Positions 3,460-32,422 of a stretch of 64,000 nucleotides of DNA are shown here, in pieces (within the stretch, counting starts at the first letter, position 1; every line of letters begins with the position of its first letter). This DNA comes from Pigmentiphaga sp. NML080357 (GTDB lineage: Bacteria > Pseudomonadota > Gammaproteobacteria > Burkholderiales > Burkholderiaceae_B). The notes below the pieces were generated by a model. That model saw only the letters and a program-made list of their open reading frames with translations. It made no database searches and was not told the DNA's origin. The stretch is from contig NZ_NINW01000008.1 of the NCBI RefSeq assembly GCF_002188465.1, positions 1-64,000 of the forward strand, in the 5' to 3' direction. The position numbers and the translations under genes were made by a program.

Positions 3460-3498
3460 GTAGGCTTCCCGATATGGCCCCCTCTGGGCAGTTTTCCG
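3460..3498 (-). promoter_or_regulatory. Candidate late promoter element upstream of portal
   Basis: On the minus strand CGGAAAAC (3498-3491) is followed after exactly 25 bases by GCCTAC (3465-3460). It lies in the 66-base gap between the 137-residue gene and the portal start at 3450. This is one of seven related sites in late-gene gaps, and the spacing is the same in five of them. Function as a promoter is inferred. Confidence 0.45.
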
Positions 3499-3516
3499 CT
3501 ATAGGGCGCGCCCGCG

Positions 3517-3930
3517 CTACGCGGCGGGAAACTCCATGTCCGCGTCGTACAGCACCCAGAAGTCCGGGCTGGCCGCATCCAGCAGGAACTGGTTGGTGTA
3601 GATCATGTTCGCCTTCAAGTAGGCCGTGCGGAACTCGTCGGCCATGATGAGGGTTTCCACTTCGCTGTCGCCCCGGTACGCCTTCTTCACCAACGGGTCG
3701 GTCTGGCTGCCCAGGTTGTAGCCGCCGGCGATCATAGCGTCCTTCAGCGCCCACCAGTACGGGCCGTAGTCGCGGTAGCGGCGCGGGTCTTTGCCCAGCC
3801 GCTCGGCCACCACGCCCAGGCCGAAGGCCAGCAGGTTCGAGAACCCCCGGTTGGCGCGCAGCGCGGCCGCGCGCTCGGACACCAGGGCCTTGATGGCGTC
3901 CTTGTCGAACTTGTATTCGGTGTAGGCCAT
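3517..3930 (-). CDS. Conserved phage protein of unknown function, between darB and portal
   Basis: 137 residues, mainly helical, with an aromatic centre (RRYRDYGPYWWALKDAMIAGGY). ATG at 3930 is preceded by GGAAGGAAAC, a good ribosome-binding site, 10 bases after the darB stop. No signal peptide, membrane segment or known motif is visible. The position just after darB recalls the small internal-head proteins of the P1 dar region (Hdf, Ulx), but there is no sequence argument for equating it with either. Confidence 0.6.
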   Translation of the reverse strand: MAYTEYKFDKDAIKALVSERAAALRANRGFSNLLAFGLGVVAERLGKDPRRYRDYGPYWWALKDAMIAGGYNLGSQTDPLVKKAYRGDSEVETLIMADEFRTAYLKANMIYTNQFLLDAASPDFWVLYDADMEFPAA

Positions 3931-3940
3931 GTTTCCTTCC

Positions 3941-6900
3941 TTACAGGGAGCGGGTCGCGGCGGTCAGTTCGAGCTGATCGGCCGCCTGGGGATAGTTGGC
4001 GATGAGGTAGTCCCAGGTGGAACGGTACACGTTCCACGCCAGGGCATCCCTGTCCCACTTGTATTTGCCGAAGCCGGCCATGTTCGCGCACCGCTTGATG
4101 GTTTCCTTCCACACCTTGGTGTTGCCCCGGATGCCCACCACGTCCGACGGCGAAGGCCCGGCCGAACGGTCGTCACCGGCCACGACCTGGCGCACGGCGG
4201 CGGCGATAGCGGCCTTGAAGCCATACGGCAGGTAGTCGCTGGCCGGGTCTTTCTCCTGCCAGTCGAACCACGGCGAGGCCGCGCGCATGAACGCGGTGGC
4301 CTGTTCGATCACCTCCGGCTCGGTGCTGCCGGTCAGCGCCGCCTTCAGGTCATCCAGCGAAACCGTCTTCTCGATCTGCTTCTGCACCCAGAGGTCGGAG
4401 TCGTCGAGGTCGGCCACGGTCAGCTTCAGGCCGTTGGCCGTGGCGAACTCTCGCAGGGCGTCATGCCGAGCGGTGGAATCCTCGTTGCTGGCTCGGCGCG
4501 TCACCGGCGTGTCGCTGGGCACCACAAACTTCCCATCGTCGAACGACCGGATGATGGCCTTCTGGGCATCGAAGATGCGGCGCTTCACTTCGGACTTGCC
4601 CGCGTCCGTCGGCGAGATAGCGAAGGGGAAATGCGGCTGCGGCAGCCGGTAATCGTGGGTGCTGTATGCCGCCAGGGCTTCCACCTTGCGGCGCTGCGCC
4701 ACCTCGGGCACTACCGAGCTGAAGCCGTTTTCGACGGTGCCAGAGGCGTTGATGGTGTCCTCGATCTGGGCCGCGTCCGTCAGGCAGGCGTCGTAGCCGG
4801 CCGTGCCCTGGTAGAACCACTCGCCGGCCATGACGGCGGCCGTGTTCGCGGCCAGCGGGGTGCCGTCGAGGCTGCGGCCGAAGGCGCCAGGACGGCCGCT
4901 TTCCAGCTTCAGCACCGCCAAGCCGTCGGGCACGCGCACGAAGGTTCCGTGGATGAGCGGCTTGCCGTTGTAGATGATTCCCTCGCCGCGCGCGATGGCA
5001 TCAGCCACGCCGGCTGGGTAGCCGCCGGACTCCCCGGCTTGACGCGCGAACGCGGCCTTGGCCTCGTCGATCATCGACCGGGCCATATCCACCTCGGCCT
5101 GCCATTCGTTGCCGATGGGGCCGCCCTCGATGACGTTCAGCCCGAAGGACGGATACGACCGGCCCAACAGCATGGATTCGATGTCGTCGTCCTTCTGCTT
5201 CTTCCCGCCGCGCACTGCGGCAAAGAAGCTGTCCAAGGTGGCCGGCTCCGAGGTCGAGCCGCCGGCGCGCCATTCCGTGCGGAACAGGGTTGCGGACTGC
5301 TCGATCTGCCGGCGCAGGCCGCCGACGCTCGCCATCAGCTCGGCCAGCAGGCTTTCGTTCTTGGCGACGGCGGTTGCCGTGGCCTTCGGATTGCTGATGC
5401 GGTCGCGCAGCTTCTCGGCCTGCTTCTCCAGCCCCCACAGGCCGATGATCTTGCGGATGACGAAACTGGCCGCCGTCTGGTTGTCGTTCAGGAAGGCGTT
5501 TTGCTTGCGAATCGTGTCCAGGTTAATCATCTGCCTGTCGCGGTTGCTCGACGCGCGCGAGGCGGCTTCCTTGGCGGCGATGGTTTCCTGCATCCGGCGC
5601 ATGGCGTCGGCGTCGCCCACCACGTCGATCAGGGCCTCCATCTGCTCCTTGGACAGCCCACCGGTGACGGCCACGCTGTCGGAGCCATTCACGTCCATGA
5701 CCTGCCCAATCCAATCGGCCTTCTTGTTCACCATCGCCCGCTTGCTGGTGTCGAAAGTGCCGTCGGCGTCGTAGTAGTAGAGGCTCACGCGCGCGGTCAG
5801 GTTGCCCTGGCGCACGCCGCGCCCGTTGCGCTGCTCCAGGCTGTCCGGCGTCCAGCCGATGGTCAGGTGGTGGATGGCCTGGGTTCCCTTCTGGAGGTTG
5901 ATGCCCACCTCGGCCTTCTCGTTGGCGATGACGGTCTGGTACTTGTTGTCCTCGCCGGTGCCGTTGAACCCATCCTGCACGGCCAGGATTTCGTCGGGCG
6001 TGTTGTTGGTGCGGCCCGTGATGATGGCGATGGCGGCCGACGGCACGCCGGCGCGGCGGGTCAGCAGGCGCTTGATCTTGTTGTGCAGCGGCAGGATGTC
6101 GCAGAACACGATCTGCTTGACGATGGGCGAACGCTGGCCGTCGGCGTCGATGCCGCGCGGGCTGGCCTGCTCATGCTGGAAGTTTTCGAGCATGGCGGCC
6201 AGCTTCGGCGGCACGGACACGTCCAGATCAAGGCCCAATTTCTCCGCGATGGCCTCGAATGCGCTCTGCACGTCCGGGTCGATGGTGTCGATCACCACGC
6301 GGCCGCCGTCGATGGCCTTGGCGCGCACCTCGATCTTCAGCAACTCGGTTTCGTTGCCGCCGGAATCCTTGACCGTCTTGTGGCCGACGATGGCCGCCTC
6401 GTCGGTCATGGGGCCGGGCCGAGGGCGTTCTTCCGTGAATTTCCGGGCGTTGAACTGCTCGATGGCCGCCTTGGCCTTGTCGGCCTGGGTGGGAAGGTAG
6501 CTGTAGAAGGTGGCGCGCTGGTCGAGTTCGGGGTCGGCGATCAGCAGCGTCATCTTGTTGATGAGGTTGAACGGGTGCCCGATGAGGTTCAGTTCCTCGC
6601 CGAAGTGCTGCGCCACCTGCGCGTAGGCTTCCGGGTCGCCACGGTTCGGCGACTTCTCCGAAATCTCGTCGATGGCGTAGCGGAACGCGCTCTTGTAGAG
6701 CTTCAGGCGCTCCACCACGTCGGGCGGCAGCGCCACGGGCGCGGCCTTTTCCTCGCGGTCGGGCACCGCGATCTGCTCGCCCACGTCCTCGGCGCTCTTG
6801 ATCGTCGCCACCTCGCCGATGGCCTTGCGCAGCACGCCGACGTTGTTCAGGCCGACGAACACGTCCGTGGTGCGCGCCACGCCGTCCATCGTCACGTCGT

Positions 6901-9900
6901 CCTGGTTCTCCTTGGCGCACATCATCTCCATGAAGTCGTCGGCGCCACGGATGCCCAGGCAAACGTCATTCACGCGCTCATGGCCGACGGCCAGCGACAG
7001 CATCGCGTAGATTTCCAGCGGGCTATTGGTGATCGGCGTGGCGGTCAGCACCATCACGCCGTCTTTCAGCTCGGACTTGCCCCGGATGAACCACGCCTTG
7101 GCCTGGGCGTCGATGCCGCGCCGGGATGCCGGCGACAGGGACAGGAACTTGGCGCCCTTGAAATCCACCGTCTGGGCGGAGTTCTTGAAGACGTGCCCCT
7201 CGTCGAAAACGATGCTATCGACGCCCATGTCCTCCAGGTACGGCGCGCCGCCGCGCTTGTTGGACAGCACGGACAGCAGGCCGGCCTGCTTGCTCTTGGC
7301 CCGTTCGTCCTCCTTCTTGTCCATGCTCTCGGCGAAACTGGCGTCCGCCTGGCGCATGAACGCCTCGTAGGCACCGATGGTTTCGTCGCGCAAACGGATG
7401 CGCTCGAAGGCTTCCAGCGTCATGAACACCTTGCTGTGCCGGTTCTCCATCACGGCCGTCAGGTCGGCGTCGAAGTTGGTGGCGCTGATGGTGGCCTTGC
7501 CATCCTTGCCCACGCGCAGCCCTACGAACAGGCAATCGTCCGTGCTCGCGTAGGCGCGGGCAGCTTCCTTGCGCCAGTTCGACAGCACCGAATTGGGCAC
7601 CACAAAAAAGGTCTTGGACTTGACGCCGATGCTCTGGGCGTACTGGGTGGCCGCCAGGGCCGTGAAGGTCTTGCCCAGGCCCACGCCGAAGCCGTTGATG
7701 CCGCCGAACTCGCGGCTGGTCTTACGCACGTAGGCGTTCTGGTAGCCGTGCAGCGTCAGGCCGTCGTTCATGCCAGGGATGGGCATGGGTGCCTCATCCT
7801 CGACCTGGCGGAAACGCAGCTTCGCTGGGTCGGCCGCCACTGCCTCCAGGCGCGCGACGATGGGACGATTGCCGCGCACCCAGCCGTTGAACTGCTCGTT
7901 GGCGGTATTCACCATCCGGCGCAGCTCTTGAAGCGCCTTGGCGTCGTCCATGCCCAGCTTCACGCCGCCCAGCGTGATCGTGCCATTCTTCAGGTAGTCG
8001 CCGATGCGGTTCAGCAGCTTCTCGCGGTCGGTTAGGTTGCTGCCCGGCACGTCGATGTCCACGCGCTTCTCGCCCGTGCGCTCGTCGTAGATGACGGCGG
8101 CCGATGGATGCACGAACCGGCGCAGAAACTCGGCCTTTTCCTCCAGGGTGACATGCGGGCTGAACAGGTTGAAGGTCAGCTTCGACACATCCACCTTGTC
8201 GATGCGCGCGCCGGCGTCGAGCTTCTGGCGCAACAGCTTGGCCCGGATGTCGTCGCTGGCCGCGCTGGCAATGTCCGCATCCACGCGCCGCAGGAACTCG
8301 GCGTAGTTGCCCACGTAGTAGTCGTCGGCGCGCGTGACGCTCTTGCCGTCCGGCGACAGGCACCAGGCCGGGTCTGCGTAGGGGTCGAAGCCATCGCCGT
8401 AGATGCCCTTGGCGTCCTCCAGGCTCACCCAGGCGGATTTCGTCTTGTAGCGCAGGCCCTCGAAACTGGCGTCGGCCGTGATTTCGACCGTCGGGGCCTG
8501 CTGCTGCACGTCGCCGCGCCAGACGGCCGAAAGGCCCGTCTTCTTCTGGTAGTGGTTGCCGATGAGCACCAAGCCATCGCGCAGCTTGCCGCCCAGGGCC
8601 GCCGGCCGCTTCTTCGCCGTGGTGGCGACGCGCTGCATGGCATCGGTCAGCGCCGGATATTCCTCGGCGAAGTTCACGCCGGTTTCCTCGCCCAGGCGCT
8701 CTTGCAGCACCTGCGCGGCCGCCATGCCCACGATGCCGGCGTTCCAGAACTGAGCGCGGTCGCCTTCGTCCTTCAGGTGCCGGATTTCGGTCATCGCACC
8801 GCGCAGCCAGTCGGGAATGTCCAGCGACTGCGAGGTTTCAATCATGTAATCGACGCACCGCTCGGCGTCGGCCCACTGGATGCGGCCCTCGAAGGCCGCG
8901 TAGGGCGTCGTCAGCTTGCCCACCAACTCGGCCATGCTGGCGCTGTCCTCGCCGCGCGCCATCGGCACCCAGCGGCCATCCTGCATTTGCAGGGTCTGGC
9001 CGGCCTGTGTGATGGTGTCGCCGTCGCGGTAGGTGATGGGCGTGGTTTCGACCGTGCCCAGCATGTCCCAATCCACGCGCGAGCCGGGGAACTTCTTCAG
9101 CATCCGAGCGATTTCGTCAATGGGCCGGTCGGTCGTCACGCGATCAACGTCGCGGAATTTGTTGGGGTCTTTCGGCACGAACTCGCCCAAGATGAACCGC
9201 TTGCCTTCGCCGTCGAAGTAGCGCCCCTCGATGAAGGGCTGCCACTGCACATTGGCGTCGATCAGGGCCTTGGGCGACTGCTCGCGCAGCTCGGCGATCT
9301 TGTCCAGCGCCTCCCGCCCGTACTTGCGGAAGGCAATCACGTCCGTCATGGTGTCCGCGCTGGCCGTGCCGAACACGGAGTTCGGCAGGCGGTACGCGCC
9401 CAGGAACTCGGCCATGTAGCTGGCCTTCACGCGCAGTTCTTCCTCCTTGCCACCCTTGCCGGAGACGCAGCGCGGCGGCGTGATGAACACGGCCAGACCG
9501 CCCGGTTTCAGCTTCTCCAGCGTGCGCAGGATGAAGTAGTTTTGCAGCGGCTCCTTCTGATAGCGCCCGTCCAGCAGTTGGTTGCCGCCGCGATCTGCGA
9601 CGCCGCCGAACGGCACGTTGGTGACGACGGCATCGTATTGCTCGTCGGGCGTGGCGGCGGCCACGCGCTCGAAGGGCGCCACGGTGGCGGTGTAGCCAGG
9701 GCCGGCATTCACCAGGCCGTTGATGCGGCCGGAAGTTTCGTTCAGCTCCACAGCGTCGATGGCCGCGTTCAGCGGCGCGGTGGCGCCGAAGATGCCGACG
9801 CCAGCGCACGGGTCGAGCACCTTCCCGCCGGCGAAGCCCAACTCGGCCATCAAGTCCCAGATGCCCTCGGCGATGGGCTTGGGGGTGTAATACTCGTAGG

Positions 9901-10396: not shown

Positions 10397-10409
10397 GATC
10401 TTCCCTTTC

Positions 10410-13400: not shown

Positions 13401-15239
13401 GGGCAAGAACGTGGTGAAAAGCCCGTCGGCGCTGTGGCGGTAGCTCAGGTCGGGCACGACGGCGGCAGAGGCGGCGGCCGGAGCCGGATTCGCATAGCCG
13501 TTGGCGGCCTGGCGCTCCGCCACCCACGCCTCGACGCGCTCGTTCAGTTCGCGCGCCACGTCGGCCGGCTCGCGGTCGCGGCCGTCGATGTCGAAAAGCT
13601 GGTCGTCGCCGAAGATCGCCGCGATGTAACGCTTGCGCTCGTCGAAACGGTAGCCGGCGTAAATCTTCCGCGTGCCGTCCGGCACCATCTGGCCGCCCAG
13701 CGGGCCAACGCCGGGGAACGCCTTGACCACGCTGTCATTGCCCGTGTCTTCCCAGCCGTAGGAATCGACCAGGGCCTTCAGGGTCTGCGCTGAATAGTGC
13801 GGCCCATCCTCGGTAGCGGGCGCCGCCGGCGTCACGCCGTTGGCGATGTCGCGCAGGCGCTGTACCTCGACCGCTTGGCTGTCGATCTGGGCAGCCAGGG
13901 CCTCCTTGGTCTGCCCCGTCTTGGGGTCGGTGCCGCCGTTCTGGGTGGCGCGCAGGTAGGCGTCCTGCAAGGTACTGACCTGCTGCACCGCGTCGGCGTA
14001 GGCGCGGTTCTTCTTGTTCTGGGCGTCCTCGGCATCGACCTTCGCCACTTCCAGCTCATGCTGGGCGGCAGCCAGCTCGGCCTCCAGTCCGGCGATTTCG
14101 TCCTTCAGACCCTGGATGGCGCCCATGCGCTCGGCACGCTTCGCGTTGAGCCGCTGGAAGGCAGGGCTATTCTTCTCGGCCAGGCGCATGATGCGCCGCG
14201 CCACCTCACGGATGTTCAGGTCGGCGCCGCGCTCGGGTGCCACCACGATGGTGATGTCCTTCTTGTTGAGCAGCCACTTCCACGAAATCACCTCGTCGGT
14301 CGGCGCCATCTTGCCGGGCGTCACGTCCGGGTTGTGGAAGAAGATGGAGACGGTCTGGCCGTCGGACAGCTCGAAGATGGCCGCCACGTTGGCGACGCCG
14401 CGCTGCTTGAACGGCTCCGTGATCTGCATGGCGACGGGTTTCACCTTGTCCCCGGTGCGCCCCATGACGCCGCGCAGCAGCTCCATCTTGCGCTCCAGCT
14501 TCGCATAGGGCGACACCAGCGCGTCGAAGGCCAGCAGGCCATCGGCATCCTCGGTGATTTCCTGGGCCGTCACGGCATCCATCAGCAGGCCCTCGCCGGC
14601 GTCCGCGCAGCGGATTTCGTACAGGACGTGATCGAGGGTGTTGTCGTAGGGCAGCGCGTCGCTGTTCCACTGAACTTTTCGGGTCATGGTTTCCAGTCCT
14701 TCATGAGGGAGGTTGTCGGCGCGGAGCGGGCGGCGCAGGTCGCCGTTCTTGAGCCACCACTTGAGTTGAGAAATCGAGGCCGGCACCAGGCTGGCGAGGC
14801 CATTCCAGCCGCGCTCGTAGCTGTCCAGGTAGGCCCGGCGGGCCGTGTCCTCGTCGGGAAAGGCGAGCATTACCTTGTGCTCGTCGAAGCGGCCGCCCAC
14901 GTTCTGATTGATGACGTAGGCCGTCTCGCTTTGCGGGTAGAAGCCGATGAAACAATCCACGGCGTCGTCGTCGGCGCCTTTCGTGCCGCTGATGTAGCCG
15001 TAGTGGGCTGCCATGCGGCTTGCCCACCGCTTGCCGGTCTTGGCGTCAATGCCCGTGCGATAGCTGCCTCGCGGCTGTTCGATGGCGAGGGGCAGGCCGT
15101 AGAGATTGGCCCGGCCCACCTTGTAGTTGCCTGCGATGCACTGCGCCTCGGTGGGTTCGGGAATCGTGTTGTTCCCGAAGGCCCCGCCGTGCGCGGCATT
15201 CTCGATGTGGAGAAACGTGGAATCGCTCATGCAGGGCAT
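10410..15239 (-). CDS. ddrB: DdrB-like polyvalent protein with N-terminal inorganic-pyrophosphatase-like domain
   Basis: 1609 residues. Residues about 35-175 match the pyrophosphatase-like domain of phage polyvalent proteins: YGLPLAIEQPRGS, HYGYISGTKG, then a D-x-D-x-x-D acidic signature (D90, D92, D95) and GRFDEHKVMLAF. Residues 185 onward hold a further globular domain, a coiled coil (about 365-440) and long Ala/Glu-rich stretches. The C-terminus has a compact conserved-looking end (LFQSVIDGTVADILAPELAD). Internal ATG 14687 has its own GAAGGA. The start at 15239 has no clear ribosome-binding site; ATG 15230 is an alternative. It lies directly upstream of darB, as DAR components do in P1. 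Confidence 0.8.
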   Translation of the reverse strand: MPCMSDSTFLHIENAAHGGAFGNNTIPEPTEAQCIAGNYKVGRANLYGLPLAIEQPRGSYRTGIDAKTGKRWASRMAAHYGYISGTKGADDDAVDCFIGFYPQSETAYVINQNVGGRFDEHKVMLAFPDEDTARRAYLDSYERGWNGLASLVPASISQLKWWLKNGDLRRPLRADNLPHEGLETMTRKVQWNSDALPYDNTLDHVLYEIRCADAGEGLLMDAVTAQEITEDADGLLAFDALVSPYAKLERKMELLRGVMGRTGDKVKPVAMQITEPFKQRGVANVAAIFELSDGQTVSIFFHNPDVTPGKMAPTDEVISWKWLLNKKDITIVVAPERGADLNIREVARRIMRLAEKNSPAFQRLNAKRAERMGAIQGLKDEIAGLEAELAAAQHELEVAKVDAEDAQNKKNRAYADAVQQVSTLQDAYLRATQNGGTDPKTGQTKEALAAQIDSQAVEVQRLRDIANGVTPAAPATEDGPHYSAQTLKALVDSYGWEDTGNDSVVKAFPGVGPLGGQMVPDGTRKIYAGYRFDERKRYIAAIFGDDQLFDIDGRDREPADVARELNERVEAWVAERQAANGYANPAPAAASAAVVPDLSYRHSADGLFTTFLPNTPEGEKAWRTMNATQGSEGGKILAAHTEAVIQQIRDAGYTVAEDTSGPTSDEEADALAAALEEPPQPDEQALIDAYFKSWGEEAAQINAAVAAINWEGITDTASAAAEMQKLRDAANSDRLIVKARDALEAVGIKSWDDRLASVTDSPGFKAQGDAMDAYRAATDKIQAIAKEKLIEAGKAELAALPDDAPLADVARAVFRKHGIDIGPRGEGWVARVAQQVEAKDADGLREILAGVGSDSNKASMEVFERATGVKLAKTQRERGRQIDEWAGITPEKRAEMDAAKDAAWLARQRESKVKDAWDALKAMNVRNNGTGIVSDGQQYLLGQVAGGYDTVGSFKRGAATVYGLEKGTDLVFVNNRTFTNFLKAAIAFGGLRQALELVGAVEPKAAEAQGDADKIAAVDAAYPFESATDGFKLWLHESLNKADYSPFVTAKAMDEAVKRHGATVEWDKALAALDDVGHAVASLEASLAVVENNAPINRAEGDILQADLETDTAKSIREAIATLTEADYAPSEEDIGGTFEAEAVTLDSTNEPPVKALLASLRSFLGQQAALDAVPSLDGTEHVGTIKLAGEAIGRIDIADDGKAMVYVGAAGDERVVFPSGTRAMYSDDDAVLMVDALFSMRDAAAPAPAVPYAGNDPDAPGIYKRDAGYLAVKQAASILGVAVQDAEVDANLVINTSIAYGGKSLKVEISPHGWVNVGSAQIMIEPNVTTESTAADGKAIAEAVKAQAEVAAAEGDPAGGRPEPGAGGDDADLVAVALAAVQSRTLARLNIKGGLPYFMFPVDGDEVILSDELRAKVEAQLGEPLVEAILPGLEGQTTLVPQSAAPTAAPLDTPPDVPELIAAGFRRVLNNDYVRAVQAGDKKLQFNVRVTEDGFIVRLTVGFNGGITGAATEIGRTADVGAAIALADAEAAKRGAGDSQADPQKDSDRALFQSVIDGTVADILAPELADDLEAAYTRNQGDAELAALFEQAVAAYQAAMMAATSSLA
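11124..11184. repeat. 61-bp perfect direct repeat, copy 2 (inside ddrB)
   Basis: Identical to 10149-10209 but read in a different frame, giving the Gly/Asp-rich AAEGDPAGGRPEPGAGGDDA of DdrB (about residues 1352-1372). The same DNA therefore encodes two unrelated linkers in adjacent genes. Confidence 0.9.
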
Positions 15240-15240
15240 G

Positions 15241-15279
15241 GTATGGCCCGGCCTGGAGCGGAAATCGGGGCGTTTTCCG
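15241..15279 (-). promoter_or_regulatory. Candidate late promoter element upstream of ddrB
   Basis: Minus strand CGGAAAAC (15279-15272), 25 bases, then CCATAC (15246-15241). GGCCGGGCCATAC is shared exactly with the site at 19079-19117. The CCATAC end is one base from the annotated ddrB start, so a transcript starting here would be nearly leaderless. This may explain the missing ribosome-binding site. Confidence 0.5.
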
Positions 15280-15964: not shown

Positions 15965-16002
15965 GGTGGTGTCTTTCCCAGGGCGATCTAACTGCCTGCA
16001 TT

Positions 16003-16041
16003 GTGGAACCCGGCAGACGCGCGAGCGCGGCGGGTTTTCCG
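16003..16041 (-). promoter_or_regulatory. Candidate late promoter element upstream of darA
   Basis: Minus strand CGGAAAAC (16041-16034) immediately follows the PAAR stop codon. After 25 bases comes TTCCAC (16008-16003), then AATGCAGG, similar to the AGTGCAGG after the 19079 site. The downstream hexamer is the most divergent of the equally spaced group. Confidence 0.4.
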
Positions 16042-19042: not shown

Positions 19043-19078
19043 TTCGTGTCCTTTCGGTTGATGAAACTCCCCTGCACT

Positions 19079-19117
19079 GTATGGCCCGGCCGCCCGTGGA
19101 ACTGGCGCGGTTTTCCG
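19079..19117 (-). promoter_or_regulatory. Candidate late promoter element upstream of tube-like gene
   Basis: Minus strand CGGAAAAC (19117-19110), 25 bases, CCATAC (19084-19079), then AGTGCAGGGGAG. It lies in the 109-base gap between the holin stop and the tube-like gene. The last 13 bases match the ddrB site exactly. The distance to ATG 19042 leaves room for a short leader with a good ribosome-binding site. Confidence 0.5.
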
Positions 19118-20625: not shown

Positions 20626-20849
20626 CAGCGAGTCCTCGCAATGGTCTTGGCGACGATGCCGCAGGCGCGGATAACGTCGTTAAGTCGGTTCACAATTGCC
20701 GCCTGCGTTTTCAATTCGGACTCCCTTCCTTTTTTCCAGTCGTCGAACGGCTTGCCCTCAAAGAATTTCCTGACCGTGCTGGGCTGCATCTGCATGGCGT
20801 CGGCCAGGGATGTCGAGGAATATAGGGTGAGGCTAGAGGCCAGATTCAT
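20625..20849 (-). CDS. Small protein of unknown function upstream of the lysis genes
   Basis: 74 residues, Ser/Thr-rich start (MNLASSLTLYSSTSLADAMQ) followed by QPSTVRKFFEGKPFDDWKKG, which could be a helix-turn-helix-like fragment. It overlaps the upstream tail gene by 17 bases and the next gene by one base. Coupling on both sides supports a real gene; no family was recognised. Confidence 0.5.
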   Translation of the reverse strand: MNLASSLTLYSSTSLADAMQMQPSTVRKFFEGKPFDDWKKGRESELKTQAAIVNRLNDVIRACGIVAKTIARTR

Positions 20850-21618
20850 CAGGTTTTCCGACCAGTTCGCGCGCCATTCGAGAGAGGCAGGTATGAACCG
20901 GAAATCGGGCCGGCGGCAGGTTCGCTGCCGCCCCTCCTTTGGGCATCGCCACGATGCCGTCCTTGCTGAACTCGGTCTTGAACAGGTGGTGCAGCTTCTC
21001 GCGGCCGGCGAAGTAGAGCGCCATCAGCGCGGAGAAGTCACTTTCGGGGAAGGCGCCCATGATCTTCATGCGCGCCACCATGAACTCGTCGAAGGCGCCC
21101 TCGGCCATGTCAGCGTCCGGCACGCTCTCATCCGAGCGCACCATCTGCGCGGCCATCGCGCCCAGAATCCAATGCAGGCGGCCGGACAGCGGCTTGCCCG
21201 AGGCGTCCTGCACCTCGCCAGTCATGCGCTCGATGGACTCGGCCATCGCGCCGGTCAGGTGCCGGATGTGCCAGGTGTCGCCGCCGACCTCGCCCACCTC
21301 GATCTGCGGGGCCTGGGTCTGGATGTCGGCCGCGCCGTCCAGGTAGTCCGAATAGTGGCCCTCACCCAGGGCGAAGTCGGGGCCGTCCTCGGCCGTCGCG
21401 GCCAGGTAGTGCGCCACGGCCAACATGCGCTCTTGCACCGTCCAGGCGGCGGGGTCGTCGATGCCCTGCGCAGACGCCACCGCCGCGCGCAGGAAGGCCG
21501 TGCAGGACGCTTCTTCCAGGTGCGTCGGCATCGACGCGATGGCGACGGACTCGGCGATGGACAGCTCGCGCAGTTGCACCGTCAGGCGGCGCGTGCGCAG
21601 CAGGGGAAAGTGAATCAT
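20833..21618 (-). CDS. Putative tail assembly or baseplate protein
   Basis: 261 residues. The N-terminus (TRRLTVQLRELSIAESVAIA, THLEEASCTAFLRAAV) and a middle segment (DTWHIRHLTGAMAESIERM) recall the T4 gp26/gp51-type baseplate or assembly-chaperone proteins encoded after sheath and tube genes. The C-terminus is basic and Pro-rich. I see no slippery frameshift site of the lambda G/GT type near its end. The assignment is by position. Confidence 0.5.
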   Translation of the reverse strand: MIHFPLLRTRRLTVQLRELSIAESVAIASMPTHLEEASCTAFLRAAVASAQGIDDPAAWTVQERMLAVAHYLAATAEDGPDFALGEGHYSDYLDGAADIQTQAPQIEVGEVGGDTWHIRHLTGAMAESIERMTGEVQDASGKPLSGRLHWILGAMAAQMVRSDESVPDADMAEGAFDEFMVARMKIMGAFPESDFSALMALYFAGREKLHHLFKTEFSKDGIVAMPKGGAAANLPPARFPVHTCLSRMARELVGKPDESGL

Positions 21619-22443: not shown

Positions 22444-22505
22444 AGCAAAAAAATGGCGCCGCCGGCGGTAGCACAGCGGCGCCCAAGTCCCCCTCGGAGC
22501 AGCGG

Positions 22506-25430: not shown

Positions 25431-27113
25431 TTACATGTTGGTGACGTTGATGAGGGCGAAGCCGCGAGCCGACGGGTCGTGCGGATTCACGGCGGTGAAG
25501 TTGCGGGCGTAGAAGCCGGCGCCCTGGCGCAGGTCGGCATTGACGGCCAGCGGGATGACGGTCGGCGGCACGGCGTCGCCCAGCACCACGGGGTTGCGCG
25601 TCACGTCGGTGGCGCGGCCCACGGCCAGAATCTGGGCGCTGGTCGCGGTTTCGTTCAAGCCCTTCGGCGTGTAGTACACGTCGTACTGGCCGAACAGGCG
25701 GCCCAGGCGATAGATGCCGGGGCGCGGGGCAATGCCCGAGGGCTGGAACAGCGTGCTGGGCAGGCCAAGGAACTGCGCGGCCACGCGCTTGGTGACGTAC
25801 AGATGGGTGACGCCATGATTCATGGTGTCCTCGGCCATCTTCTGCGACACGACACTCAGCGGGTAGGCCAGCTCGGGCCACACGCCGAAGCGGCCGCTAT
25901 CGACGTGCGCCTGCGCGGCGCCGAAGTCGAAGGTCGCGGTGTTCAGCGCGGCCAGGCGAACGCCCTTGCGCAGCACGTCGTAGTGGCGCTCGTTGGCGAA
26001 CTGCGCCTGGATGGCGATGACGCTTTCGCTGTACGGGTCGAGGCCCAGTTCGTTCGCCATCTGGGTGCGGCTGTCGATGGTCTGGTGCGTGGTGACGCGC
26101 CAGGGCTTGGCGAACAGCGAGAAGGTATTGACCGCCGAGATGATCGTCGGGGTCAGCTCGGGCGCACGCTCGAAGTCGATGAAGCCTTCGACCACCACGG
26201 GCACGGTAGCCGGCAGCGCGGGGGTCGTGGTCAGCGAGTAAGCGCCGGTGTCGGTGTTGATCGTGCCGCCGATGGCATAGCTGGTGCCGCCGACATTGAT
26301 GGTGCCGGACACGGCCGAGTTGCCGCTACCAGCGGAATCGACCTCGCGGGCAGCCACGCGGCCATCCACATAGACGATGGAGCGGCCACGCAGCAGCTTC
26401 AGGTTGGCGGCGTTCTGGTCGCAGGTGTCGGCGGTAGCCTGGATGGCGGTAATCTTGCCCGTTACCGCGCCAGGGGTGGCGTCGCCCGAGCCGGCCGGCA
26501 TGGAGGTATGCACGCGGCTGGAGCTGATGTAGGTGTCGCCGGAATCGACGCCATCCAGCAGCGCGCCTTGCGCATAGGCGCCGAACTCGCTGCCGGCTTG
26601 GTGCGTCATGATCGCCAAGCGCGCCTCGTTGGAGCCGATGTCCGCCGGCAGGTAGTGCGCGAACGGGATGGCTTCGCCCAGGGCAGCCAGAATCGCCACC
26701 ACGGCGCGGTTCGGTTGCAGCGAAATCTGGTCGTGGTGCGCCGAGGTCGCCGAGTCCAGACTGAACTTGCGGCGGGCGGCTTCGGTCGTGGCGTAGGCCG
26801 AGTGCAGCGCCAGCTCGATCACGTCGGCCGGGGCCGGGGTGCCGTGCTGGGCCTCATAGACGGAAACACCGTCCAGAACAGCGCGAGTAACGAGAGCGGC
26901 CGCATCGTCGCCCTTCGCCTCGTCCAGCACGGTCTGGAGGGTGTCGGGCACCTTGACGCCCGTGTTCTGGCTGGTGGCCGTCGCCAGGAAATCGGCGGCG
27001 GCGGCAGAATCGAAGGTGCCGCCCTTGGTGGCGTTGTCCTTCAGAGAATCGACGAATTGGGCTACTTCGGCAGTCTCGCGCTTGAAGTAATCCTGATGGA
27101 TGCGCTTGGTCAT
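25431..27113 (-). CDS. Major capsid protein
   Basis: 560 residues, starting MTKRIHQDYFKRETAEVAQF. Features expected of HK97-fold capsids: an N-terminal helical region, NRAVVAILAALGEAIPFAHY, a long insertion with repeated Gly/Thr (about residues 225-300), ELGLDPYSESVIAIQAQFAN (spine helix region) and a C-terminal domain ending SARGFALINVTNM. Size is close to T4 gp23/P1 gp23. Good ribosome-binding site (GAAAGGACACGAAACC). A candidate late promoter lies in the 129-base gap upstream. Confidence 0.8.
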   Translation of the reverse strand: MTKRIHQDYFKRETAEVAQFVDSLKDNATKGGTFDSAAAADFLATATSQNTGVKVPDTLQTVLDEAKGDDAAALVTRAVLDGVSVYEAQHGTPAPADVIELALHSAYATTEAARRKFSLDSATSAHHDQISLQPNRAVVAILAALGEAIPFAHYLPADIGSNEARLAIMTHQAGSEFGAYAQGALLDGVDSGDTYISSSRVHTSMPAGSGDATPGAVTGKITAIQATADTCDQNAANLKLLRGRSIVYVDGRVAAREVDSAGSGNSAVSGTINVGGTSYAIGGTINTDTGAYSLTTTPALPATVPVVVEGFIDFERAPELTPTIISAVNTFSLFAKPWRVTTHQTIDSRTQMANELGLDPYSESVIAIQAQFANERHYDVLRKGVRLAALNTATFDFGAAQAHVDSGRFGVWPELAYPLSVVSQKMAEDTMNHGVTHLYVTKRVAAQFLGLPSTLFQPSGIAPRPGIYRLGRLFGQYDVYYTPKGLNETATSAQILAVGRATDVTRNPVVLGDAVPPTVIPLAVNADLRQGAGFYARNFTAVNPHDPSARGFALINVTNM

Positions 27114-27179
27114 GGTTTCGTGTCCTTTCGGAGAAGTTCAAACACTGGAACGCCGGCTGGTAGCCGACTGCCAGCTATT

Positions 27180-27218
27180 CTCAAAGGCTCACGAACTCGC
27201 CAGACGGCGCTTTTTCCG
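27180..27218 (-). promoter_or_regulatory. Weak copy of the late promoter element upstream of the major capsid gene
   Basis: Minus strand CGGAAAAA (27218-27211) lies in the gap before the capsid gene. The hexamer 25 bases on is TTTGAG, which does not match; AATAGC a few bases further may substitute. Only the first half of the element is conserved here. Confidence 0.25.
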
Positions 27219-27242
27219 GGTTTGCTATCCGCCCGCGCTGGG

Positions 27243-27945: not shown

Positions 27946-27964
27946 GTCAGTTCCTCGCTGTTTC

Positions 27965-29059
27965 TCACTGAGCCACCCTGGAAATCTTCTTGTCATCCCA
28001 ACCCCAGGTGCGCATCTGCGCAACCTGATCGGGCATCAGCGCGCCACGCTTGAGCGCCGCGTCAATCCGGCGTGTGTAAGGGTCAATCTTCTTGGGCGGT
28101 CGAGCCTTCGGCCGGCTCGCCGAAGCCTTGGCGGCCCGCCTGTCACGAGCTTTATCCGCCTCGACCTTGCGCTGCTCGCTGGTCTTGATGCGTGCCGGCG
28201 CCTTGGATTGGATGGCTTCTTCGGCCTCCGTCTGCTTGAGCGTGGTATTCGCCTTGTAGGCCGACACGCCCTGCAAATGTCGCTCCAGAAAGCGCAGAAC
28301 GGTATTGGACGATTCCAACTCCGTCATGACACGCAGGACGTGCTTGCAGGCTACGCCCTTCAGTCCAGGGTTCCGAATCTTGGGAAAACCCGTTTCGTCG
28401 CGGCCGGCATTAAACCCGCCGATGGTCGCCACGTAACGCAGGAAGTACCTATGCCGGTCGCAACTGCAATCGAACTTCAGCCCGCCCTTGCGCATTTTGT
28501 TGGCTTCCCTGCGCACGGCGGCCTGGTCGCCACCAGAAGCGATGATGGCATCCACCGCGTTTCGGAATCCAACCAACTGAATCGTGACATGGTGCCGCGT
28601 CACGCCTGGCGTCGAGCCGCCAGCGTTCGTTATGAACCGCACGGAGTCGTGAAGCGCCGACACCGGCACACCCATCGTGATTTCCTTGCGCGCCCGGTCG
28701 ATGTCGCTTCTCGCCCCATCCGACCTGTCGGACAGATACACCAGTGGCTTCGCCGAAGCCAGGTCGATGACCTGCCGTGCTGTGATGCCCTTTCCGGTGG
28801 AAAACCCTGCCTGCTTCTTGGCGAGCTGCATGTTGTGGCGGAAAGCCGCAAGCTCGTTGGCAGTAATTTGCGTCAGCCCACCGTTCAGTGTGGTGAACAG
28901 AACCTTGCCGGAGTCCCACTGCCCCGACTGGAGCATCTTGTCAGTCAGGATCGTGGATTTCGCGGTGGCCTCGGCGTCCGCACGCTGCTTGGCGTCCGCC
29001 TCAAAGCGCCTCTTCGCTTCCCCGACGTGGCCTTTGACCTTGCCGAACCAATCAGCCAT
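27965..29059 (-). CDS. SWIM-type zinc-finger protein in the head module
   Basis: 364 residues. C198-x-C200 followed by C238-x-H240 (CSC ... GVACKHVLRVM) fits the SWIM consensus CxC-xn-CxH. The N-terminal half contains TKSTILTDK-like helices and LVYLSDRSDGARSDIDRARK; the C-terminal 100 residues are highly basic with Lys/Arg/Ala repeats (KARDRRAAKASASRPKARPP), ending PDQVAQMRTWGWDDKKISRV. SWIM fingers bind DNA or proteins. The location between the capsid and neck genes suggests a virion or packaging protein rather than a regulator; inferred. Confidence 0.65.
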   Translation of the reverse strand: MADWFGKVKGHVGEAKRRFEADAKQRADAEATAKSTILTDKMLQSGQWDSGKVLFTTLNGGLTQITANELAAFRHNMQLAKKQAGFSTGKGITARQVIDLASAKPLVYLSDRSDGARSDIDRARKEITMGVPVSALHDSVRFITNAGGSTPGVTRHHVTIQLVGFRNAVDAIIASGGDQAAVRREANKMRKGGLKFDCSCDRHRYFLRYVATIGGFNAGRDETGFPKIRNPGLKGVACKHVLRVMTELESSNTVLRFLERHLQGVSAYKANTTLKQTEAEEAIQSKAPARIKTSEQRKVEADKARDRRAAKASASRPKARPPKKIDPYTRRIDAALKRGALMPDQVAQMRTWGWDDKKISRVAQ

Positions 29060-29849
29060 TCAGGTACTCCCAGGTCAGTCCTGAGCGTGTCGGTAGTCCG
29101 CGAAGTTGCTTGCTGATGACCGATTCGCTGACACCTTTCGCCTTGGCGGCCGCGCCCCTGCTAGGGAAAACCTCTCCCGTGGTGATGCAGCGGATTTTCT
29201 TTTGGTGCCGAACCCTGGCCGCCTCGTTGCGCTTTCTCTGAAACTCAGGGTCTTGGCTCAACCGCTTCATGTTCTCCCGCATCCGTTCCGAATGCGCGGC
29301 GGCAAAAGAAGGGTCGGCGTGCAACTTTTTCAGGGTCGCCGCCGATGCCTCGGCTACGTTTCGATATGCCTGCCCGCGCTCCCTCATCACTCGACGACGG
29401 GAAGCTGCCGCCTTCTCCTTGGCCTCGTCTGTCTGCATGACCACGGCCCTTGCTCGCGCTTTCTCAACGAAAACAGGGTCGCTCCATCGCTCTTTGTTCT
29501 GTTTGGCTGCGCGTGCGGTGTTCCTGGCCCGGAAGCCGGGACGCTTCCACTGCTCAGTCAGCAGGTGCTCGGCAGTTGGAAGGACATTCAGCGCGGGCCG
29601 CAGCCGATCAATTGCCGCCTGTTCGCAGGCCCTCAAACCATCCCGAGCACACCGCAGCAGCAAGCGAAAGCGCAACGACTCCACGCCTGCGTCGGCAGCG
29701 ATCTGGGAAAGGATGGGGTTGTCGTGCCGCCTATGCCGAAGGCGCGACTTGTGTTCAGCCCATCGCTTATCTACATCCACAGACGAGCCGATATACAGCC
29801 GCCCGTCAGGGGCCTGGATGGCATAGACTCCAATGATTTTCTGTTTCAT
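29052..29849 (-). CDS. Free-standing GIY-YIG homing-type endonuclease
   Basis: 265 residues. N-terminal GIY-YIG catalytic domain: GVYAIQAPDGRLYIGSSVDV, with the later Glu in RACEQAAIDRLRPALN. The middle has repeated short basic helices (KKLHADPSFAAAHSERMREN, KRLSQDPEFQRKRNEA), like NUMOD3 repeats. The C-terminus (CITTGEVFPSRGAAAKAKGV, SVISKQLRG, LTWEYL) is a NUMOD1-like helix-turn-helix. It overlaps the SWIM gene by 8 bases. Such genes are mobile and spread into phage late regions; GC content is lower than its neighbours. Confidence 0.9.
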   Translation of the reverse strand: MKQKIIGVYAIQAPDGRLYIGSSVDVDKRWAEHKSRLRHRRHDNPILSQIAADAGVESLRFRLLLRCARDGLRACEQAAIDRLRPALNVLPTAEHLLTEQWKRPGFRARNTARAAKQNKERWSDPVFVEKARARAVVMQTDEAKEKAAASRRRVMRERGQAYRNVAEASAATLKKLHADPSFAAAHSERMRENMKRLSQDPEFQRKRNEAARVRHQKKIRCITTGEVFPSRGAAAKAKGVSESVISKQLRGLPTRSGLTWEYLNG

Positions 29850-29857
29850 TCAGCCAT

Positions 29858-29896
29858 CCTATGGAACTGAAAACGTCGATACCGTTACGTTTTCCG
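29858..29896 (-). promoter_or_regulatory. Candidate late promoter element upstream of the GIY-YIG gene
   Basis: Minus strand CGGAAAAC (29896-29889) with CCATAG starting after 24 rather than 25 bases. It lies in the 57-base gap between the 112-residue neck gene and the endonuclease, so it may have served the SWIM gene before the endonuclease was inserted. Confidence 0.4.
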
Positions 29897-29906
29897 ATAT
29901 TTGCGC

Positions 29907-30245
29907 CTACACCTCCGCCCAGGCGGGCGCGTAGTCTTCGCGCAGGTCGTCGATGGACTCGAAACCGGCCCGGCGCTTGATGTCGATGAGCTGCCCCTCG
30001 TTGGGGAGCACGATGCGCTTCTGCGGCAGAGGCTGATCGACCGTATCCAGGCCGGCGGCAGCCATCACGGCCAGGAACTCGTCACGCCGGCCATAGACGC
30101 GCTGGGAAACCAGCGTCAGGTCGTACATCTCGTCCGGCTTCGTCTCGTAGAAGATCGCCGTGGTGTCCCAGGGTTTGGTGTTCTCCGCGAACTTGCGCAC
30201 CTCGCGGTAGAAGGATTTGGCGGCGCGGGTGTCCTTGTCGAGCAT
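29907..30245 (-). CDS. Tail-X/gp53-like baseplate or neck protein
   Basis: 112 residues. After a charged N-terminus it reads ETKPDEMYDLTLVSQRVYGR then LPQKRIVLPNEGQLIDIKRR, resembling the short LysM-like gpX/T4 gp53 proteins in which a region contacting peptidoglycan follows an 'L-P' motif. It is followed downstream by a gap with a late promoter element. The assignment is tentative. Confidence 0.5.
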   Translation of the reverse strand: MLDKDTRAAKSFYREVRKFAENTKPWDTTAIFYETKPDEMYDLTLVSQRVYGRRDEFLAVMAAAGLDTVDQPLPQKRIVLPNEGQLIDIKRRAGFESIDDLREDYAPAWAEV

Positions 30246-30254
30246 GGCCGGCCC

Positions 30255-30743
30255 TCAGATGGTCATGATGCCGCCGCCCAGCAGGTGGCGGAACGATTCG
30301 GCCAGCTTGACGGTGCGCTCCACGGTGTCGGAGCGGGTCGCGTGCAGGCACGTCGCCAGCGCCGCGATCTGGCCGCAGGAGATACCCTCGGCCACCCGGT
30401 ACTTGGGGCCGCTGGTGTCGATACCGTCGCGCTCAATGGCTTGTTCGGGGTTCGCGCGCGCGGCGCGGTCAGCAAACACCAGCCGGGCACTCTTGCCGTC
30501 AGCCGCCACGCCCACCTTCAGCGAGTAGAAGGCAGCAATGGCCGGCATCAGGTCGGCGTCGGTGAAAAGGGCATCGCGGGCGATGTCCGGCACGTTGGTC
30601 AGGACGATGCAGCCCTCGCGGCGCTCGGCGCGGTAGTCGGCCTCGGCGCCCACCACCAGCACGCGCGCGTCCGGGTCGTAGGCGGAGAACAGGGAGCACG
30701 GCCGCCCGCCGTACCCGGTAAAGGTCGCCTGAATCTGAATCAT
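30255..30743 (-). CDS. Structural-region protein of unknown function
   Basis: 162 residues, starting MIQIQATFTGYGGRPCSLFS and ending FRHLLGGGIMTI. Mixed alpha/beta with no recognised motif. ATG 30743 overlaps the stop of the upstream gene (ATGA). It belongs to a block of four neck/tail-completion candidates between protease and capsid genes. Confidence 0.55.
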   Translation of the reverse strand: MIQIQATFTGYGGRPCSLFSAYDPDARVLVVGAEADYRAERREGCIVLTNVPDIARDALFTDADLMPAIAAFYSLKVGVAADGKSARLVFADRAARANPEQAIERDGIDTSGPKYRVAEGISCGQIAALATCLHATRSDTVERTVKLAESFRHLLGGGIMTI

Positions 30744-31525
30744 GGCGCGCCCCCGGCTTCGTCGGACACCTCGTAGGGTCGGATTTCGGCCGCGCCGCCC
30801 TGGCCGCCGGCCTCGGCGCTTTCCACATGCACTGTCTGCACCAGCGGATACCCTGCGGGGTCGTCCGTGCCAGGCTCGCCCTTACCGTCGTTCGGCTCGC
30901 CAGCCTTGGGAGCGTCGAACAGCGGGATTTCCGCGCGCAGGGTCAGGTCGATGGCAAGGATGGTCAGGTTCTTGGCGTCGGTGGCGATGGACATGGCCGG
31001 CATGTCCGGCGATTCGACCTGCACCGGCCAAGCCGTATCCAGCCCAGCGAAGCGGTAGGACGCCTCGAACCGGCGGTTATCCGTCTCGTCGAGGAACAGC
31101 AGGAACTGCGCCGCCAAGGAGTGCGCCGACGGCTCATCCGTGGCGAACACCACGACCTGCGCGCGCACGTCGCCCGCTACGGCACGCAGGCCGAACAGCC
31201 GCTCCTTGGGATCATCGGGAATCATGACCATCTGGCGGTCGGCCACCTGGCGGGTGTAGTCGCGGCCGGTCGGGGTGTAGTCCTTCGCCACGGCAACGAT
31301 GATCGCCGGCAGCTCGGGCGGCGTCGTGGGCGCGTTCTCCAGGTCGGAGCGCAGCCAGAGGGACAGCATTTCCTCGGCGGCGTCGATCATGCGCGCCGGC
31401 GCCCAGGCAATCGCCTTGGCGAGCGGGCGCGTGACGAACCCCTCCAGGGGCTTCGTGCTCGGCACGATGGTGGAGAAGTAGCGGCCCATGAACTGGCCGA
31501 GGGCGATCTTGACGGGCTGGAGCAT
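30740..31525 (-). CDS. Putative neck or tail-terminator protein
   Basis: 261 residues. The central part (RQMVMIPDDPKERLFGLRAV, DVRAQVVVFATDEPSAHSLA, FLLFLDETDNRRFEASYRFA) looks like an alpha/beta terminator fold; the last 50 residues are acidic, Gly/Pro-rich and probably disordered. It sits six bases upstream of the prohead-protease stop. Tail-terminator/neck identity is suggested only by position and fold impression. Confidence 0.45.
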   Translation of the reverse strand: MLQPVKIALGQFMGRYFSTIVPSTKPLEGFVTRPLAKAIAWAPARMIDAAEEMLSLWLRSDLENAPTTPPELPAIIVAVAKDYTPTGRDYTRQVADRQMVMIPDDPKERLFGLRAVAGDVRAQVVVFATDEPSAHSLAAQFLLFLDETDNRRFEASYRFAGLDTAWPVQVESPDMPAMSIATDAKNLTILAIDLTLRAEIPLFDAPKAGEPNDGKGEPGTDDPAGYPLVQTVHVESAEAGGQGGAAEIRPYEVSDEAGGAP

Positions 31526-31531
31526 GGGCGC

Positions 31532-32359
31532 TTACCGGCGGAGGAACTGGCCAAGCAAGCGGCCGTACAGGGGCACATGCTCGGCCGGGTCGGCGTTGCT
31601 TTGCGGCTCGACGAACTGCGGCAGGGACGCGGCGCCACGGAAGGCGGCGGCGTCCCGGCGCATCCGCTCCACCGGGTCGATGGAAACGGCGATGGGCGCC
31701 ACGGCCACGGCGTCCATCGCCGCGCCGGCGTCGATGCCCTTGGCGGCCAGCATGGACAGCAGTTGCTCGTTCTCCGCGCGCAGGTGCTCGATGACCTCGC
31801 TTGCCGTGTCGCGCTCCGCATTGGCCGAATCCAGCAGGCGCAACACGCCGCGCAGTTGCTCGTCGTAGATGGCCGCCTCGATGTCGTCCAGCGTCATGTC
31901 GCGCACGTCGTCAAGGGTGTAGCCCCGGTTCGTGCTGTAGTTCGGCTCCAGCACGTAGTCGAACCCGAAGAACTCGGGCCGGTGCTGGTCGATGGCCGAG
32001 CTGAATCCGCCCACACGGCCGGCGTACAGCTTCGCGGCCACCTGTCCGGGGTCGTTGTTCAGGAACTCGGCCTGGTGCTCTATGGTGCCGTCCGGGCTGG
32101 CCCGCAGCATGGTCGTGACAAGGGCCGGCTCCACCAGCGACGGGCGGCCGTCATCCAGGCCGCCTTCGGCCGGGTTCATGCCGAATTTGATGCGGGGCCA
32201 GTGCCCGTAGTAGCCCAGCATGTCGCGGTTCTTGACCCGCTCTTGGCAGGCCGGGCCGTTGATCGCGTCGCAGATGGCGCGGATGTTGAAATTCCGCTCC
32301 TTGCCTCGGAACTGGCGGCCCCGCTCCCGCAGGTTGTAGGTGATGACCTTGGTTTGCAT
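31532..32359 (-). CDS. Putative prohead protease / internal scaffold protein
   Basis: 275 residues. The N-terminal 150 residues resemble T4 gp21-like or P1 Pro-like head proteases: RDMLGYYGHWPRIKFGMNPA, VEPALVTTMLRASPDGTIEH (candidate catalytic His), then KLYAGRVGGFSSAIDQHRPE (candidate Ser). After residue 160 there is a long acidic coiled coil (AAIYDEQLRGVLRLLDSANA, IEHLRAENEQLLSMLAAKG), as expected for a fused scaffold. The ribosome-binding site GGAGG lies within a hairpin, and a candidate late promoter is just upstream. Confidence 0.6.
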   Translation of the reverse strand: MQTKVITYNLRERGRQFRGKERNFNIRAICDAINGPACQERVKNRDMLGYYGHWPRIKFGMNPAEGGLDDGRPSLVEPALVTTMLRASPDGTIEHQAEFLNNDPGQVAAKLYAGRVGGFSSAIDQHRPEFFGFDYVLEPNYSTNRGYTLDDVRDMTLDDIEAAIYDEQLRGVLRLLDSANAERDTASEVIEHLRAENEQLLSMLAAKGIDAGAAMDAVAVAPIAVSIDPVERMRRDAAAFRGAASLPQFVEPQSNADPAEHVPLYGRLLGQFLRR

Positions 32360-32364
32360 AGGAA

Positions 32365-32380
32365 CCTCCTTCTTCGGAGG
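32365..32380 (-). promoter_or_regulatory. Hairpin covering the ribosome-binding site of the protease gene
   Basis: On the minus strand CCTCC-GAAGAA-GGAGG forms a perfect 5-bp stem whose 3' arm is the only Shine-Dalgarno sequence of the gene starting at 32359. Translation may depend on opening this stem. Confidence 0.5.
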
Positions 32381-32383
32381 ATG

Positions 32384-32422
32384 GTAGGAGCCGCCCAGGG
32401 GGCGAAAGCGCGCCGTTTTCCG
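32384..32422 (-). promoter_or_regulatory. Candidate late promoter element upstream of the protease gene
   Basis: Minus strand CGGAAAAC (32422-32415), 25 bases, TCCTAC (32389-32384). It lies in the 76-base gap between the TerL stop and the protease start. It would allow head genes to be transcribed separately from the terminase genes. Confidence 0.45.

Follow-up and report, generated by a model that had tools for sequence, protein, structure and literature searches.

The stretch of DNA analysed here, referred to as the window, comprises 64,000 nucleotides of Pigmentiphaga sp. NML080357 (contig NZ_NINW01000008.1, positions 1 to 64,000). It forms the start of a contig in a 5.73-Mb genome and contains a portion of a temperate phage whose genes resemble those of P1. 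Subject of this study is a repeated element of this phage, the octamer CGGAAAAM together with a −10-like hexamer downstream of it, and a gene for a helix-turn-helix (HTH) protein of the XRE type as the candidate regulator. The large terminase is 32% identical to PacB of phage P1, and the capsid protein shows 27% identity to P1 gp23 over 61% of its length. A close relative is a prophage in a megaplasmid of Ideonella dechloratans CCUG 30977, which is 96.8% identical over 88% of window positions 10001-33000 and is flanked by an annotated integrase gene and an annotated excisionase gene. Among the named phages of the collection, Xanthomonas phage Rb1 is nearest (PacB 71%, capsid 61% and XRE protein 59% identical). 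The terminase, capsid and tail genes constitute a long minus-strand block, which we term late, a timing suggested by the kind of genes that follow the putative promoters (Table 1).

The octamer CGGAAAAM has eight matches in the 64 kb, all of them on the minus strand, which is the strand of the late genes. Shuffled sequence contains 3.43 matches on average (standard deviation 1.98) and 3 of 100 shuffles reach eight; the number of octamers alone is only mildly unusual, and strand, place and the coupled −10 hexamer constitute the part that is not due to chance. Based on a set of 35 late genes, seven of the eight octamers lie wholly inside gaps. These gaps account for 1,059 of 36,714 bp, which for eight octamers gives a binomial P of 4.7e-11. 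Seven of the nine late gaps of at least 40 bp contain an octamer, the exceptions being 1259-1374 and 22444-22505. A preliminary description of this DNA had listed seven octamers, which were all located on the minus strand where it had placed them, and it had considered that the motif might be as frequent inside coding sequence as in gaps, which is not what the counts give. The association with gaps which it had proposed holds for these seven sites. Its statement that tightly packed regions lack the octamer is not strictly true, since an eighth copy, which had been missed (20853-20860), sits in the overlap of two genes.

All eight octamers are followed by a −10-like hexamer that starts 28 nucleotides after the octamer (27 nucleotides at 29896). 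A CCATAC-like hexamer at a distance of 25 bases had been proposed earlier. This register lies three bases too far upstream, and a shift by +3 gives a −10 box at every one of the eight sites, including the site at 27218, for which no hexamer had been listed and where GAGAAT fits at a spacing of 28. No canonical sigma70 promoter was found in the 14-33 kb region, and intrinsic terminators show no excess there (14 found, 13.1 expected).

Table 1. Candidate late promoters and associated genes in the window (positions in nucleotides; +1, start site predicted from the −10 position; aa, amino acids)
Feature	Position	Strand	Details
Candidate late promoter 1	3457..3498	−	Octamer 3498-3491; −10 TACCCT 3462-3457; predicted +1 at 3450 = A of the ATG of a 691-aa late gene (putatively leaderless)
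Candidate late promoter 2	15238..15279	−	Octamer 15279-15272; −10 TACCAT 15243-15238; predicted +1 at 15231, ATG 15230 of a 1606-aa gene (tentatively DarA in the preliminary description; putatively leaderless or with a one-base leader)
Candidate late promoter 3	16000..16041	−	Octamer 16041-16034; −10 CACAAT; gene start 15964
Candidate late promoter 4	19076..19117	−	Octamer 19117-19110; −10 TACAGT; gene start 19042
Candidate late promoter 5	20819..20860	−	Octamer 20860-20853; −10 TATATT, spacing 28; within the overlap of two coding frames
Candidate late promoter 6 (capsid)	27177..27218	−	Octamer 27218-27211; −10 GAGAAT 27182-27177; capsid ATG 27113
Candidate late promoter 7	29856..29896	−	Octamer 29896-29889; −10 TAGGAT (spacing 27); predicted +1 at 29849 = homing-endonuclease ATG (putatively leaderless)
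Candidate late promoter 8	32381..32422	−	Octamer 32422-32415; −10 TACCAT; gene start 32359
Major capsid protein gene	25431..27113	−	Rb1 orthologue so annotated, 61% identical; anchor for the comparison
Homing-endonuclease gene	29052..29849	−	265 aa; PHROG match, E 3.5e-08; behind candidate late promoter 7
PacA-like small terminase gene	34861-36099	−	Directly downstream of the XRE/HTH gene
XRE/HTH protein gene	36119..36739	−	206 aa; candidate late activator; directly upstream of the PacA-like gene, the place of lpa in P1

Relatives were collected by capsid-anchored searches, which yielded 43 viral-contig loci and 8 genome loci. For analysis of the spacing these 51 loci were pooled with window positions 1-37500 and a 43-kb part of Rb1 (L003), and near-duplicates and matches near locus ends were removed, which reduced the CGGAAAA sites from 196 to 142 on the sense strand and from 45 to 43 on the antisense strand. 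The −10 pattern [TCG]ANNNT was picked after viewing the window sites; other spacings and the antisense strand served as controls. This pattern follows at a spacing of 28 in 76 and at a spacing of 27 in 13 of the 142 distinct sense sites, while any other spacing from 8 to 49 accounts for 0-14 of them, and on the antisense strand a spacing of 28 was seen in 3 of 43 sites. The 14 sense sites at spacing 17 probably stem from a conserved coding stretch, that of the 20860 family described below.

Upstream sequence is available for 50 of the capsid loci (L049 has none). In a search that tolerated mismatches over the 260 bp ahead of the capsid gene, the best match to CGGAAAA is exact in 40 of these, at −96 to −156, in loci spanning 44-68% G+C; in six loci the first base alone differs, and four have no such site. 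Behind the exact heptamer a −10-like hexamer is present at spacing 28 in 30 and at spacing 27 in 6 of the 40 loci, or in 22 and 4, respectively, of the 29 distinct ones. Scanning of 11 phages with a weight matrix, which was trained on sites that include these phages, gave 5-11 sites in ten of them compared to 0.3-1.3 expected, mostly on the late strand. In the eleventh, G030 (capsid locus L048), CGGAAAA has almost disappeared, and the word ahead of the capsid gene is TGGAAAA; [TG]GGAAAA followed by a −10 box at 28 was seen there in 6 of 28 sense sites, which is a weak signal.

A profile was built from the 89 sites with spacing 27 or 28. These had been selected for CGGAAAA and [TCG]ANNNT, so that the selected letters are invariant by construction and the flanks, positions −9/−8, +1/+2 and the ATG positions are free. 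The profile shows A at about half of the sites at −52/−51, CGGAAAAC at −48 to −41, C at −36 (73%), C at −15/−14 (51-58%), a TAnAAT-like −10 box and A at +1/+2 in 42-44%. A −35 box was not detected: none of the 89 sites has five of the six TTGACA letters, and on average they match it less well than shuffled spacers do. A dyad CGGAA-N11-TTCCG, which had been seen by eye at some window sites, is absent from the profile and was discarded. In the AT-richer phages L061/G043 and G029, CAAAA often lies about 10 bp downstream of GGAAAA and may be the site of a second subunit. The fixed spacing of 28 and an octamer at −48 to −41, abutting or overlapping the −35 region, correspond to the layout of class II activation, and the octamer is likely to be an activator site on this sequence evidence.

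The GGAAAA at −47 to −42 is also near the proximal position of an UP element, and an A-tract contacted by the alpha C-terminal domain of the host RNA polymerase would need no activator. We regard this explanation as very improbable: 46 of 50 capsid orthologues have an exact GGAAAA, the GG included, while conservation of the A/T flank at −54 to −51 is only partial; a −35 box does not accompany it, and the word of a Pseudomonas branch described below, GCGCAAAC, is not an A-tract.

In 15 of the 89 sites an ATG is placed 6 or 7 nucleotides after the −10 box, that is at +1/+2 of the start sites predicted from the −10 position. Not more than three sites have an ATG at any offset from 8 to 17, and the count climbs again to 6-7 sites at offsets 28-29, as expected of ordinary leaders. 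Ten of the 15 close ATGs open a frame of at least 50 codons in the available sequence. In the window this applies to the 691-aa, the 1606-aa and the homing-endonuclease genes (ATGs in Table 1). Rb1, L021, L023, L035 and L066 have the same close placement at a comparable site, and in Rb1 the arrangement of candidate promoter 2 is found ahead of its large syntenic gene. Transcripts of these genes would begin at the ATG. The homing-endonuclease gene and candidate promoter 7 together make up an insertion of about 0.85 kb (29052-29904) between two tightly packed late genes, which is absent from the Ideonella prophage, and the inserted gene brought a late-promoter copy of its own.

Elements that recur in gaps on one strand may also act as signals in the RNA, for example in antitermination or as a processing site. 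At the putatively leaderless sites, however, the octamer would be upstream of the transcript, and it keeps a locked distance to a −10 box that is followed by A at +1/+2. Octamer and hexamer might also be the −35/−10 pair of a phage sigma factor. A spacing of 28 is too long for such a pair of the sigma70 family, and no sigma factor was found among 19 distinct window proteins that were scanned as a subset of the window genes. Both the RNA signal and the sigma factor are hardly credible explanations.

The octamer at 20860 lies within a conserved frame (W-S/A-E-N ... S-L-T-L-Y-S-S-T-S-L), by which 25 distinct orthologues were collected. GGAAAAC is kept in 22 of them and the exact octamer in 20; in L045 and L047 the first octamer base is changed. 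All 22 orthologues with GGAAAAC also keep TANNNT in the right place, mostly by the codon CTA, which in 11 late genes of the window is used for 7 of the 601 leucines. The three orthologues without GGAAAAC (L029, L030, L066) are also without the TA. Octamer and −10 box are thus kept or lost together, and therefore this copy seems to be retained as a promoter in addition to its coding role.

The candidate for a protein acting at these sites is the XRE/HTH protein. It contains a PF13560 domain (E 6.3e-08, 33.3 bits compared to a cut-off of 27; HTH_31/HTH_3 class), and its DNA-binding domain has profile matches to ImmR (E 2.6e-06) and SinR. The XRE domains of 434 repressor, C.AhdI, C.BclI, ImmR and SinR are its best matches by profile and by fold (fold matches at E about 1e-2, 434 repressor and SinR domains among them). 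The protein differs from these by residues 93-197, predicted to form two long helices. The whole model gave no match at E 0.001 in the PDB and a viral library. Relatives of the protein are present in 27 of 43 viral records and in 21 of 21 records of at least 56 kb; the 16 records without a match are all below 40 kb and are probably fragments. Furthermore, the 87 proteins of the Ideonella prophage were compared to 11 phages, with matches covering less than 35% of the query dropped and with G030 and G033 lacking their last 2.6 and 1.8 kb. Nineteen proteins were found in all 11 phages, namely 18 proteins of the late block and the HTH protein, while PacA and every early gene tested are missing from at least one of them. 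Thirteen proteins of the left end of the Ideonella prophage (L014) are outside the range of the window, since the contig begins there.

Phage P1 offers the closest comparison. It has eleven dispersed late promoters with a normal −10 box, no −35 box and a phage-specific upstream element (according to excerpts of PMC10695390 and PMC8198154). In the annotated P1 record the activator gene lies directly upstream of pacA-pacB. The window phage resembles P1 in having a −10 without a −35 box, a phage-specific upstream element, many copies ahead of late genes, and a regulator gene ahead of the terminase genes. The P1 element, however, is AAGTGACTT-like, is annotated as the −22 region and lies 4 nucleotides before the −10 box (9 in LPhot), whereas the window element is at −48 to −41; a P1-type −22 element is not visible in the 89-site profile (information at most 0.16 bit at −28 to −16). 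The regulators differ as well. Lpa (gp10 of P1), which is carried by P1 and D6, is a protein of 150 amino acids, and homology to the HTH protein was rejected (hhalign probability 0.6). No match to P1 and D6 Lpa was obtained by tblastn (E ≤ 0.01) in the window, Rb1, pKF715C, CP048608 and the examined part of pBVIE05, nor to the HTH protein in P1 at the same threshold. The Ideonella prophage carries the HTH gene and not lpa at this place, and in the searched records the two are mutually exclusive. By name, 791 of 792 plasmid records with an Lpa match belong to Enterobacterales and one to Acinetobacter. The earlier suggestion of a phage-specific late promoter that is analogous to, and different from, the Lpa system is supported by the locked spacing, the conservation upstream of the capsid gene, the missing −35 box, the non-P1 element and the XRE protein in the place of lpa.

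Two more distant lineages carry homologous HTH proteins, whose alignments to the window family extend across 165 and 167 columns, respectively. In pBVIE05 of Burkholderia vietnamiensis G4 (PacB 43%; HTH hhalign probability 99.2) the gene is directly upstream of PacA-PacB. The commonest heptamer of 12 late gaps is AGGAAAA, present in 6 gaps, and a −10 box at 28 or 29 follows in 7 of 10 sense sites (5 of 6 in gaps) and in 0 of 2 antisense sites. In pKF715C of Pseudomonas putida (PacB 39.5%; HTH hhalign probability 97.7), which has the Pseudomonas word given above, 7 of the 18 sense copies of GCAAAC in the late region are followed by a −10 box at 29, and 0 of the 10 antisense copies. GCAAAC was then tested in CP048608, a plasmid of P. 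fluorescens DR133 with an HTH protein 42% identical to that of pKF715C, and the −10 box at 29 was found in 10 of 33 sense sites (0-3 at other spacings) and in 0 of 13 antisense sites. CP048608 showed no peak for CGGAAAA (0 of 11 at 28) or AGGAAAA (0 of 9 at 28-29). In P1, which was used as control, CGGAAAA with a −10 box at 28 occurs in 0 of 13 (+) and 1 of 7 (−) sites, AGGAAAA at 28 or 29 in 2 of 12 (+) and 0 of 7 (−) and [TG]GGAAAA at 28 in 4 of 27 (+); according to the last value small clusters arise by chance. The helix regions read YSNSSKLSKVE (window), YANSTQLSLIE (pBVIE05), HKGVTQISLFE (pKF715C) and HSNLTMISLFE (CP048608), and these differences may set the word that is recognised.

Taken together, the elements are most likely activator-dependent late promoters of the sigma70 type, at which an activator would bind the octamer and turn on the late units. 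We infer from co-occurrence and co-variation that this is the XRE/HTH protein of the phage. Its site would be CGGAAAAC, around −48 to −41 and adjoining the −35 region of a promoter which has no −35 box and a −10 box 28 nucleotides downstream. Bound in this way it would stand in for the missing −35 contact and recruit the sigma70 polymerase in a class II-like manner, acting as activator and not as repressor, and would switch on the late units behind the eight sites of the window. Judging by the place of its gene, which is that of lpa in P1, the HTH protein would be made before the late genes.

Several observations weigh against this interpretation. The exact heptamer is missing in 10 of 50 capsid orthologues, and the strict −10 pattern in 4 of 40 loci with an exact heptamer (L028, L058, L061, L067). 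G030, which has the most diverged HTH protein, has only 2 matrix sites compared to 0.7 expected. The second half-site that is expected for a dimeric XRE protein is limited to the C at −36 (73%) and to CAAAA in some AT-richer phages, and the predicted template modelling score (pTM) of the HTH protein in AlphaFold is only 0.43. In CP048608 antisense GCAAAC shows the −10 pattern at spacing 30 in 3 of 13 sites, and therefore small counts arise by chance. The sequences are related by descent, so that counts are not independent events, and the co-occurrence of HTH protein and element could reflect shared inheritance with the structural genes instead of binding. Finally, XRE proteins are often repressors, and the HTH gene adjoins the terminase genes. 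The protein might accordingly be a repressor or a packaging factor, with the octamer of genuine late promoters bound by another phage or host protein. We consider this unlikely. No other of the 87 prophage proteins outside the late block occurs in all 11 phages, the word changes along with the HTH protein in two further lineages, and the small terminase is a PacA-like protein of its own. L063 and pBVIE05, both in Burkholderia hosts, differ in the first base of the word, which makes a host factor less likely; an octamer-binding protein encoded inside the late block would still be a candidate.

For activation by the XRE/HTH protein the known phage systems provide partial parallels. GIL01 gp6, a phage DNA-binding late activator, acts at promoter P3 from −43.5, overlapping the −35 region, a typical class II location (excerpts of PMC6182141). 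GIL01, a Bacillus phage, has a single late promoter with a palindromic site and a LexA homologue. In the window phage, by contrast, the promoters number about eight, the octamer is asymmetric and the XRE protein ends in a long helical C-terminus. The phage activator Mor of Mu binds around −43.5 on a sigma70 promoter, at inverted 5-bp repeats (excerpt of PMC4390567). A phage activator with dispersed late promoters is of a known kind. Among the matches listed for open PMC papers, no paper was found in which this element, or a late activator of the XRE type in P1-like phages, is named, and no description of the activator family, the element or the series of words was found there. Mor and C form a separate protein family.

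On balance the data favour a more general picture, in which an XRE/HTH family replaces Lpa at the same locus in a widespread P1-like branch. The architecture would be constant (site at about −48, −10 box 28-29 nucleotides downstream), the word would have changed with the recognition helix (CGGAAAA, AGGAAAA, GCGCAAA), so that activators and promoters would form a natural series of orthogonal pairs, and some of the late genes would be expressed from leaderless mRNAs. The element provides a late-gene switch that can be tested across a broad set of P1-related phages and phage-plasmids with hosts among Betaproteobacteria, Xanthomonas and Pseudomonas, and makes their late units predictable from sequence. 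It suggests that one late activator took over from another to which it is not homologous, while the genomic position stayed fixed. The three words, together with their homologous regulators, are potential orthogonal promoter/activator pairs, and leaderless late mRNAs, if true, would be an unusual choice for virion proteins.

Contig C8 of the same genome, which gives a second match of a 15.3-kb region, was considered as a second phage of this kind. Of its 130 kb, 100 kb were examined, and CGGAAAA is present there without [TCG]ANNNT at spacing 28; C8 was therefore not taken for such a phage. Upstream of the HTH gene a minus-strand block of the window contains genes for an N4/N6 DNA methylase that has an Mrr domain at its N-terminus (39986-41569) and for a DnaA/IstB-like ATPase (38301-39107). 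A frame just past the window end (window about 63000-64000) presumably codes for a MutS-like protein, which suggests a prophage end near 63 kb beside mutS. The Ideonella prophage contains annotated parts of a diversity-generating retroelement, two avd genes and an RNA-directed DNA polymerase (NZ_CP088082.1 564750-566774; L014 28751-30775). Similar proteins are found in G002, G010, G018 and G027; the window contig begins before that part. L066, a phage of this group, is located in a record titled as metagenome-assembled genome (MAG) of Alistipes senegalensis, probably by a binning error; the seven other genome records have titles of proteobacteria.

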